From contig PCAU01000011.1 of NCBI GenBank assembly GCA_002730735.1, positions 1-64,000 on the forward strand: a stretch of 64,000 nucleotides of DNA. Reading direction: 5' to 3'. The translations under genes and the position numbers were made by a program. This DNA is from Acidobacteriota bacterium. GTDB taxonomy: Bacteria > Acidobacteriota > Vicinamibacteria > Vicinamibacterales > UBA823. This document shows, in pieces, positions 14,085-48,930 of the stretch (the first letter of the stretch is position 1; every line of letters starts with the position of its first letter). Below the pieces are notes generated by a model. It worked only from the letters and a program-made list of their open reading frames with translations. It was not told where the DNA came from and did not search any database.

Positions 14085-14132
14085 ATTGGGACTTGTTCTG
14101 GCGGTTTGCCCGCCCCTAGGTGGAGATTGAAC

Positions 14133-14240
14133 TTGACACTCCTTTTTTCTTATCAATAATCTATATCTTGTATGAGGGAAGCTCGCTAGGCCTACCTGTT
14201 GTGAGCTTGTTAGCTGTTAATCATCGTAGATGAACTCCTA
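14133..14240 (+). promoter_or_regulatory. Promoter and conserved leader of ftsZ, duplicated upstream of the lysine-rich micro-genes
   Basis: A sigma70-type promoter is visible: TTGACA at 14133-14138, a 16-nt spacer and AATAAT at 14155-14160, giving a start near 14167 and a ~75-nt leader. The whole block to 14240 aligns with the minus-strand block 48784-48675 at about 86% identity by hand, including bases well downstream of the promoter. A five-codon ORF (ATG at 14172, TAG at 14187-14189, reading MREAR) is preserved in both copies. The conserved leader suggests post-transcriptional or post-initiation control of ftsZ separate from the upstream dcw operon. No simple conserved hairpin was found by eye. 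Confidence 0.8.
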
Positions 14241-14243
14241 AAG

Positions 14244-15647
14244 ATGACGGATGCGCGCCCAAACCGGACTAATGCCAACAGGGTTGCCCCTGGTAGCTCC
14301 TTGCGATTAACGCTTGACGATGAGAGTCGGGCGGGTGCTCGCATCAGGGTGATAGGTGTCGGAGGGGGTGGTGGTAACGCCGTTAACAGGATGGTGAAGT
14401 CTGGTCTGCAAGGAGTCGACTTCATTGTTGCTAACACAGACATCCAGGCTCTTCAAGCTAACGGCGCGCCGAGCAAGATTCAATTAGGGGTGAAACTCAC
14501 CAAGGGACTCGGTGCGGGCGCCGACCCGAACCTCGGGCGAGAGGCGGCACTAGAGAATACAAACGAACTCATTGACGCTCTTGATGGTGCTGACATGGTG
14601 TTCGTGACAACGGGTCTTGGGGGTGGTACGGGCACGGGAGCGGCACCGGTGATCGCCAATTTGGCCAGTGAGCTTGGATGCCTGACGGTTGCTGTGGTTA
14701 CTAAGCCTTTTCAATTTGAGGGTAAGCAGCGCGCTACGCGTGCCGATGAAGGACTCGACAAACTTCGCGACAGCGTAGATTCGGTAATCAGCATTCCGAA
14801 TGAGCGTCTCTTATTGACGAAGAGCATGACCTTTCGTAAGGCGTTTGAAAAGGTTGATGACGTGCTTCTCCAAGCTGTTCAGGGTATTTCTGACCTAATT
14901 TTGGTACCCGGCTTGATCAACCTCGACTTCGCTGACGTGAGAACTATCATGTCTCGGACTGGCATGGCCATCATGGGCACTGGAGTTGGCAAAGGTGCGA
15001 GCCGAGCGAACGCCGCAGCAAATCGGGCAATTTCCAGTCCTCTTTTGGAAGATGCGGCTGTTGAGGGAGCGCGCGGTGTCATCATTAACGTCACTGGAGG
15101 CAACGACCTATCCATTGGTGAAGTCAATGAAGCATCGTCGATTATCCATCAAGCTGCGCACGACGACGCCAATATTATTTTCGGCGCAGTCGTCGATCCG
15201 CGGATGCAAAGCCAAGTTAAAATCACCGTGATAGCGACGGGATTTGACAAGCATGCGAGCACGGCGGAGGAACCGGCTTCGACACCAGTCGACCTTCAGG
15301 ATTACTCGTCGTTGAAGCAGGGAGGCCATGAGCCGGCTGCCGAGGCGCCGAGACTATCACTGGCCAGGTCAGTGGAGTCTGAGCTATCGCGTGAGCCCAA
15401 ACCGACCCCCGTCATAACCCAGTCCAGTCCGGATGATCATTCGGAACAAGTGGCCGGTGACCTTTTATTGGCAGGGCATGGTGATTCCCAAGCCGCTCTT
15501 GGCACCCAAATGAATATTGCTAAGCGGTTAGAAAAACTTATTAATCAACCTACAGAATCCACGACAGCGAATGGTGAATTGAAGGATGCTGACCTGAGTG
15601 ACCCTGACGCAGTGGAGTTCGACACGCCAGCCTTCTTGCGCCGATAG
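14244..15647 (+). CDS. ftsZ: Cell division GTPase FtsZ
   Basis: A 467-residue tubulin homologue that polymerises into the division ring. After a ~30-residue N-terminal extension come [17 protein letters not shown], the GTP-binding signature GGGTGTG at 126-132, and the T7-loop region ([11 protein letters not shown]) needed for GTP hydrolysis. The globular core ends around residue 335, followed by a long low-complexity linker rich in Glu, Ser and Pro. The extreme C-terminus FDTPAFLRR is the conserved peptide that binds FtsA and other partners. It has its own promoter-leader (14133-14240), so it can be expressed apart from ftsA. Confidence 0.97.
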
Positions 15648-48381: not shown

Positions 48382-48412
48382 AAAAAAGGGGGCGACGATC
48401 GCCCCCTTTTTC
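48382..48412. terminator. Bidirectional intrinsic terminator
   Basis: GGGGGCGA at 48388-48395 pairs with TCGCCCCC at 48399-48406, flanked by A runs on the left and T runs on the right. It ends transcription of the lipoprotein gene from the left and of the 22-residue micro-gene from the right. Confidence 0.9.
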
Positions 48413-48431: not shown

Positions 48432-48500
48432 TTAACGCTTCTTTGCGCCCTTCTTCTTAGCCGCCTTCTTCTTCTTCTTAGCTGCTTTTCTCTTTGCCAT
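48432..48500 (-). CDS. Lysine-rich microprotein, 22 residues (second of tandem pair)
   Basis: ATG (48500-48498) to TAA encodes 22 residues made only of Met, Ala, Lys, Arg and Gly. It begins MAKRKAAKKKKK and ends in AAKKKGAKKR, the same C-terminal end as its neighbour. Net charge is about +16. A G-rich stretch (AGGGGGG) lies 11-17 nt before the start. It is followed by a strong terminator 20 nt downstream. Polycations of this kind resemble the tails of histone H1-like proteins and would be expected to bind nucleic acid or ribosomes. That is inference; I know of no named family. Its existence as a gene rests on duplication with conserved start, stop and sequence. Confidence 0.75.
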   Translation of the reverse strand: MAKRKAAKKKKKAAKKKGAKKR

Positions 48501-48542
48501 TGTCGCCTATTCCCCCCCTTCATCCGGAGATTTCGACGTGCA

Positions 48543-48580
48543 CAAAAATTTAGGGGGTGTCGATGTTGTTGACACCCCCA
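48543..48580 (-). terminator. Intrinsic terminator after the first micro-gene
   Basis: On the minus strand GGGGGTGTC (48579-48571) pairs with GACACCCCC (48561-48553) around a 9-nt loop, then TAAATTTTTG follows. It lies 19 nt past the stop of the 20-residue micro-gene and before the second one, so most transcripts should carry only the first gene. Confidence 0.85.
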
Positions 48581-48598
48581 TACAGATTGTCGAAAGAA

Positions 48599-48661
48599 TC
48601 AGCGCTTCTTCGCGCCCTTCTTCTTAGCCGCCTTCTTCTTTTTTGCCTTCTTTTTCGCCAT
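48599..48661 (-). CDS. Lysine-rich microprotein, 20 residues (first of tandem pair)
   Basis: ATG (48661-48659) to TGA (48601-48599) encodes MAKKKAKKKKAAKKKGAKKR: 13 of 20 residues are lysine, with Ala, Gly, Arg and Met. The C-terminal 13 residues are the same as in the second copy. It follows a full promoter and an ~88-nt leader shared with ftsZ, has AGGGGATAGCA just before the ATG as ribosome site, and is followed by a strong terminator. All of this marks a real, probably highly expressed, monocistronic gene. A role in compacting DNA, binding rRNA or neutralising polyphosphate is possible; nothing in the sequence decides between them. Such genes are missed by annotation with length cut-offs. 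Confidence 0.85.
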   Translation of the reverse strand: MAKKKAKKKKAAKKKGAKKR

Positions 48662-48674
48662 TGCTATCCCCTAT

Positions 48675-48784
48675 TAGGAGTCTATCTACGACGATTAACA
48701 GCTAACGAACTAACACAATAGGTAGGCTTAGTGAACTTCCCTCATACAACATATAGATTATTGATAAGAAAAATGTGGTGTCAA
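48675..48784 (-). promoter_or_regulatory. Promoter and leader of the micro-genes, near-copy of the ftsZ leader
   Basis: Read on the minus strand: TTGACA (48784-48779), 16-nt spacer, AATAAT (48762-48757), start near 48750. The bases from the -35 element to 48675 align with 14133-14240 upstream of ftsZ with about 13 substitutions and one 2-nt indel in 110 positions. The block includes a five-codon ORF (ATG at 48745, TAA ending at 48728, reading MREVH) matching MREAR of the ftsZ copy. Conservation well past the promoter implies a functional RNA or DNA element in the leader. Confidence 0.85.
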
Positions 48785-48930
48785 GGACAAAGTGCACAAA
48801 ATGTCAAAAAAGTGTCGCCGAAGCGCCCACAACAGGGTGTGTCGGTCGCTAGAGCGCACGACTGTAGACTTGTAATTAGAGCGCCCTGTCCACTCTCTGT
48901 CCTACGCGATCTGCTCGATGAAAAAACTCA

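Follow-up and report, generated by a model that had tools for sequence, protein, structure and literature searches.

Conserved lysine-rich micro-genes with a probable pseudoknot leader RNA in Vicinamibacterales, and their likeness to histone H1 tails

Protamines and the C-terminal tails of eukaryotic histone H1 are short disordered polycations in which charge counts more than exact sequence, and the leader peptides of amino acid attenuators are encoded by short ORFs that are rich in one amino acid and followed by a terminator. Lys/Ala-rich low-complexity polycations are also described in the H1-like family Hc2 (Pfam PF07382, NCBIfam NF038052), and KPAA-repeat tails are carried by AlgP and PhaF of Pseudomonas. 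In AlgP, an N-terminal domain of 124 aa is joined to a tail of 195 aa, and the protein localizes to polyphosphate granules; DNA binding in vitro has been reported both for peptides with KPAA repeats and for a fragment of this tail (PMC9239181). Here, we describe a locus whose products resemble such tails without any attached domain; no description of such peptides was found in the open-access literature.

The window, meaning the whole 64-kb stretch of DNA that was analyzed, derives from a metagenome-assembled genome (MAG) of the phylum Acidobacteriota and the order Vicinamibacterales, whose members live in soil and in the sea. An earlier note on this DNA had pointed to two adjacent lysine-rich ORFs with an identical C-terminal segment, and both were found exactly where it had placed them on the minus strand: ORF1 (48599..48661, TGA stop), encoding the 20-aa peptide MAKKKAKKKKAAKKKGAKKR, and ORF2 (48432..48500, TAA stop), encoding the 22-aa peptide MAKRKAAKKKKKAAKKKGAKKR, with translations that confirm the shared end AAKKKGAKKR. 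Among all ATG ORFs of 14 to 70 aa in the whole 64-kb window, these are the only two in which Lys and Arg together reach at least 50%.

Across about 114 loci, the peptides are 14 to 65 aa long, nearly always take the form MAKK...KKR and are composed of K, A, G, R, T, V, and P with almost nothing else (Lys 50%, Ala 27%, Arg 4 to 6%; Asp and Glu absent from two-gene loci). They meet the H1-like trait of a Lys/Ala-rich, acid-free low-complexity sequence, and relatives with a single gene encode H1-tail-like proteins of 37 to 65 aa, some with KPAAKK-like repeats similar to those of the Pseudomonas tails. The longest of these, at 65 aa, matches Hc2 weakly along its length (E about 0.001), scoring 19.1 bits against a cutoff of 40 in Pfam and 19.4 bits against a cutoff of 135 in NCBIfam; because the curated cutoffs are not reached, the peptides are not filed in H1-like families. 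The two window peptides, about a tenth of the Hc2 model length (194) and without any other domain, returned no match in Pfam or NCBIfam, ribosomal families included, with the limit that short low-complexity queries reduce the power of such a search, and the view that they belong to no defined family stands. As for the comparison with histone H1 tails, which had been offered as a loose one, the likeness holds and is closer than that word allows. The AlgP layout of an N-terminal helical domain with a long KPAA tail is not met, since proteins of 14 to 65 aa have no N-terminal domain: the peptides here are all tail and are usually duplicated. With protamines and H1 tails they share short length, disorder, and a dependence on charge over sequence, but they are bacterial, based on Lys and not Arg, and preceded by a dedicated leader RNA, with no evidence of descent.

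That start and stop codons, duplicated sequence, ribosome site, promoter and terminators argue against chance was a claim of the earlier note, and it is borne out by conservation and synonymous bias, which together rule out chance ORFs. Both ORFs are kept in same-species and same-genus genomes; ORF1 is identical in one same-species genome (G142, 97% complete), and in one close relative its sole difference is a change of the stop codon from TGA to TAA. Relatives retain start, stop and Lys pattern, every length change amounts to whole codons, and the terminators and leader are conserved, as expected of real, unannotated micro-genes. Relatives lacking the ORFs or carrying frame-breaking indels would have refuted this claim, which survived when related genomes were examined. 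In 53 disjoint pairs of near loci, picked by leader similarity and not by peptide similarity, we observe 78 synonymous and 5 nonsynonymous single-base codon differences, against an expected synonymous share of 22%, and changes at codon positions 1, 2, and 3 number 8, 16, and 91, respectively. Both peptides are identical in 17 of 56 two-gene loci, yet differ there at 3 to 8 synonymous codons. Peptide similarity within a genome is 0.83 versus 0.60 between genomes, a difference reached by 0 of 301 permutations, and the lengths of paired peptides correlate (rho, 0.78). Because the loci are related by descent, the events behind these counts are not independent. The identity of peptides whose synonymous codons have diverged, together with the within-genome match, shows selection on the peptide and not merely on the DNA; it is thus the peptide sequence that is preserved, with the two copies changing together.

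Of 100 related genomes searched at the DNA level, 70 gave a match, and a common architecture emerges: tandem TTGACA boxes, TAATCTACAT, a leader of about 90 to 120 nt, AAGGAGG, ORF1 and a terminator, followed by a spacer, a near-invariant GAAGGGGGGGAUA, ORF2, a second terminator, and a convergent cyclophilin gene, which is the downstream gene at 106 of the 114 loci. When promoter and leader were combined into a covariance model (R1), it matched 90 of the 127 genomes of the class that are well assembled; the 90 belong to one order and span 13 of its families, and none of the genomes from other orders of the class gave a match. Within the order, 34 of 44 genomes contain the pattern MAKK...KKR-stop; in the rest of the phylum, a search of about 350 genomes yielded only two sequences, neither of them Lys-rich. 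When about 85,000 species genomes were scanned with the promoter pattern, 90 stretches were recovered, nearly all bearing the ORFs and labelled as Acidobacteria or Vicinamibacterales. Those without ORFs comprise two Caldatribacterium, one Anaerovorax, and one Veillonellaceae stretch, which look like chance matches, and L114, where the locus runs off the end of the available stretch and the ORFs are hence not visible. Six MAGs labelled as Cyanobacteria, Woeseiaceae, Acidimicrobiia, or Bifidobacterium breve (L038, L040, L054, L066, L114, and L122) bear a Vicinamibacterales-type promoter or locus; as the locus is the same as in Vicinamibacterales, these submitter labels are probably wrong. A phage origin was rejected, with no match in the phage records searched.

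By reading the cyclophilin neighborhood of genomes without a leader match, we identified MAAKKAAKKAAKKKK-type ORFs at the equivalent place in two families that belong to sister orders within the class; a terminator and a G-run ribosome site accompany them. Such ORFs were then recovered by pattern from 8 of 31 genomes, some of which have them in tandem, and in every case they neighbor a homologue of ddl, tgt, or cyclophilin. Given that these ORFs occupy the same place, the peptide family predates the order Vicinamibacterales. In several genera of family f9 (L176, L178, L179, and L184), ddl lies next to cyclophilin and no peptide gene separates them. With synteny intact, this is a clean natural loss of the locus, which is thus dispensable in this subclade.

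This gene neighborhood bears on two further explanations. A short ORF rich in Lys with a terminator directly behind it, an arrangement that occurs here twice, resembles a lysine-sensing attenuation leader controlling a downstream lysine-related gene, but the co-directional biosynthetic or tRNA-related target that attenuation requires is missing: no same-strand gene lies downstream, the convergent cyclophilin being next in nearly all loci. Peptides of up to 65 aa and matching copies are likewise not expected of attenuators, and here the peptide itself is under selection, so that we regard this explanation as effectively refuted. Short cationic peptides could also be exported, as antimicrobials or as agents aimed at competitors, or act in the manner of type I toxins. 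They carry no signal and no hydrophobic stretch, however, and do not meet the type I toxin trait of a hydrophobic membrane-spanning peptide; the conserved surroundings include no exporter or immunity gene, and order-wide conservation at one locus is unlike that of bacteriocins or toxin-antitoxin genes. We consider such a role very improbable.

The good promoter that had been proposed is present on the minus strand at 48754..48807, as the single one detected for the gene pair. It comprises an upstream TTGACA (48807..48802), a main TTGACA (48784..48779), and ATAATCTA (48761..48754), is conserved in the leader alignment, and was scored by the promoter scan as TTGACA/AATAAT with 11 of 12 consensus matches (48784..48757). 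Since no promoter other than this one 5' of ORF1 was found, expression of ORF2 probably relies on read-through of the first terminator. One subgroup (L031, L033, L065, L085, L093, L101, and L112) has lost ORF1 together with its terminator, and the first leader there joins a second hairpin and ORF2, an arrangement that implies one promoter common to both ORFs. A promoter type common to many genes was ruled out: TTGACA-N-ATAATCTA occurs in one copy per genome in five relatives, two of which are single-contig genomes of 6.5 to 7.5 Mb, and in the window's genome it occurs again only at ftsZ, making two copies.

A strong intrinsic terminator follows each ORF, as had been suggested from the letters alone. 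T1 (48541..48579, minus strand; stem span, 48579..48553) combines a 9-bp GC-rich stem with a U tract (-18.4 kcal/mol; z, -4.5 versus shuffled sequence), and T2 (48382..48411, minus strand; -22.1 kcal/mol; z, -5.4) is symmetrical enough to also serve the convergent cyclophilin gene. In relatives, terminators were found 3' of 66 of 69 ORF1 and 71 of 72 ORF2 sequences (~97% of ORFs) versus about 21% of shuffled sequences. That a mechanical promoter/terminator scan overlooked both T1 and T2 reflects a limit of the scan, most likely because the 9-nt loop of T1 exceeds the allowed 8 nt and because the T tract of T2 is taken up by A-T pairs at the foot of its stem. The Shine-Dalgarno sequence of ORF1 is AGGGGA (48667..48672, minus strand; sequence and leader alignment), which reads AAGGAGG in most relatives. 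For ORF2, the conserved GAAGGGGGGGAAT (48509..48521, minus strand) corresponds to GAAGGGGGGGAUA, nearly invariant 5' of ORF2 in an alignment of 56 sequences, and resembles an extended ribosome site that includes a G-U wobble; the sister orders retain a comparable G-run, GAAAGGGGGGAU.

The 5' leader of ORF1 (48662..48753, minus strand) is a probable pseudoknot RNA, on the evidence of an alignment of 50 leaders, pairing counts, and covariance-model matches. In relatives, a stem P1 (GGGUGG/CCACC) is accompanied by a helix between its loop and downstream sequence (GCUCAG/CUGAGC); 87.5% of cells are paired, and compensatory G-C to C-G double changes occur within P1. The pairing is weaker in the window's genus. 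Searches of the leaders against Rfam 15 gave no family at gathering score and nothing credible even at E up to 5, and a known riboswitch or structured RNA element was ruled out on this basis. A second long hairpin (element B) lies within about 150 nt 5' of ORF2 in most relatives (L010, L011, L033, L039, L049, and others), with an apex of UGCC-AGGC-GGCA or, in some, UGCC-GAAA-GGCA with a GAAA loop. Its folding energy is only mildly unusual (z, -1.0 to -2.6), its structure being based on stems that covary by eye in alignments and not on energy, and it has no match in Rfam.

These two conserved RNA elements could suggest that the functional product is the transcript, as a regulatory or structured RNA, with the ORFs as a by-product, or that the RNA has a dual function. 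Synonymous changes nevertheless dominate in the ORFs, length changes keep to whole codons, and start, stop, and ribosome sites are retained, and the window's genus lacks element B while ORF2 persists. An RNA product therefore seems improbable to us.

Taken together, we interpret the locus, with modest confidence, as a dedicated gene pair for free-standing, disordered polycationic micro-proteins, probably abundant, that bind nucleic acid in the manner of a detached H1 tail. This interpretation rests on the composition and free length of the peptides, the occurrence of KPAAKK forms among relatives with a single gene, and the reported DNA binding of KPAA peptides and of the AlgP tail fragment (PMC9239181); a charge-driven disordered polycation predicts both the Lys/Ala composition, devoid of Asp and Glu in two-gene loci, and a length free to vary from 14 to 65 aa. 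In the proposed mechanism, the strong promoter with its structured leader would drive ORF1, and a leaky T1 would let part of the transcripts reach ORF2 with its own extended ribosome site. Within each genome the two products are near-identical; their probable abundance and the read-through of T1 are both inferred without expression data. The peptides may then bind nucleic acid electrostatically, chromosomal DNA first and RNA or rRNA second, and act like the C-terminal tails of H1-like proteins such as Hc2 and AlgP without a globular domain; binding, the choice between DNA and RNA, and any compaction of the nucleoid or of RNPs remain inferences in the absence of binding data. Replacement of HU was ruled out, as HU was found in 25 of 25 relatives, so the peptides are no simple substitute for this main nucleoid protein. 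The loss of the locus from the f9 subclade also weighs against the interpretation, as do the Hc2 score below cutoff and the absence of any Hc2 match to the short ORFs.

Ribosomal RNA or another polyanion could equally be the ligand of such a polycation. Size, charge, strong promoter and ribosome sites, and order-wide conservation would also fit loosely held ribosomal or assembly micro-proteins that neutralize rRNA, like small basic ribosomal proteins. A length of 14 to 65 aa and an interchangeable sequence are unlike a fitted ribosomal protein, though, and the locus lies outside ribosomal operons, has no ribosomal family match in Pfam or NCBIfam and is lost in one subclade, which leaves this a possible but unlikely role. 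Of the ligands that the earlier note had listed, DNA and rRNA thus remain candidates by inference only, while polyphosphate is unlikely as a general one. The presence of KPAA-tailed AlgP at polyphosphate granules (PMC9239181) would favor peptides acting as counter-ions or organizers of these or other granules, but a search for PPK1 in 40 genomes failed to find it in 15; many of these have the locus, among them near-complete genomes of the window's own family (G004, G005, and G007). Other polyphosphate-making enzymes are not excluded, and we give a granule role little credence.

Annotation usually sets its lower limit above genes of this size. Here, a micro-gene has evidently been retained, together with promoter, leader, and terminators, throughout one order and also in sister orders. 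Extending the H1-tail-like interpretation, we tentatively propose, while doubting that every part will hold, an undescribed class-wide family of minimal "detached histone tail" micro-proteins (14 to 65 aa), whose dedicated promoter would give high expression and whose regulation would lie with a pseudoknot leader RNA of a new kind and, ahead of the second copy, a further hairpin leader. Autoregulation by peptide binding to its own leader is possible and likewise inferred. Should the peptides prove to bind DNA or RNA, hardly any known protein dedicated to a chromatin- or RNP-like role would be smaller, and they would provide a natural experiment on the minimal sequence needed by a polycationic tail. 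The question can be tested, given single-contig genomes that have the locus and a subclade that has lost it.

The earlier note had not mentioned the conserved leader RNA, the additional leader element of relatives, the class-wide distribution, or a further copy of promoter and leader elsewhere in the window. This copy (14132..14241, plus strand) carries no peptide ORF and lies directly 5' of ftsZ (14244..15647), with 87% identity over 112 nt and a covariance-model E value of 1.6e-13. Among the genomes searched, it was seen solely in the window's genus and is probably a co-opted promoter/leader.
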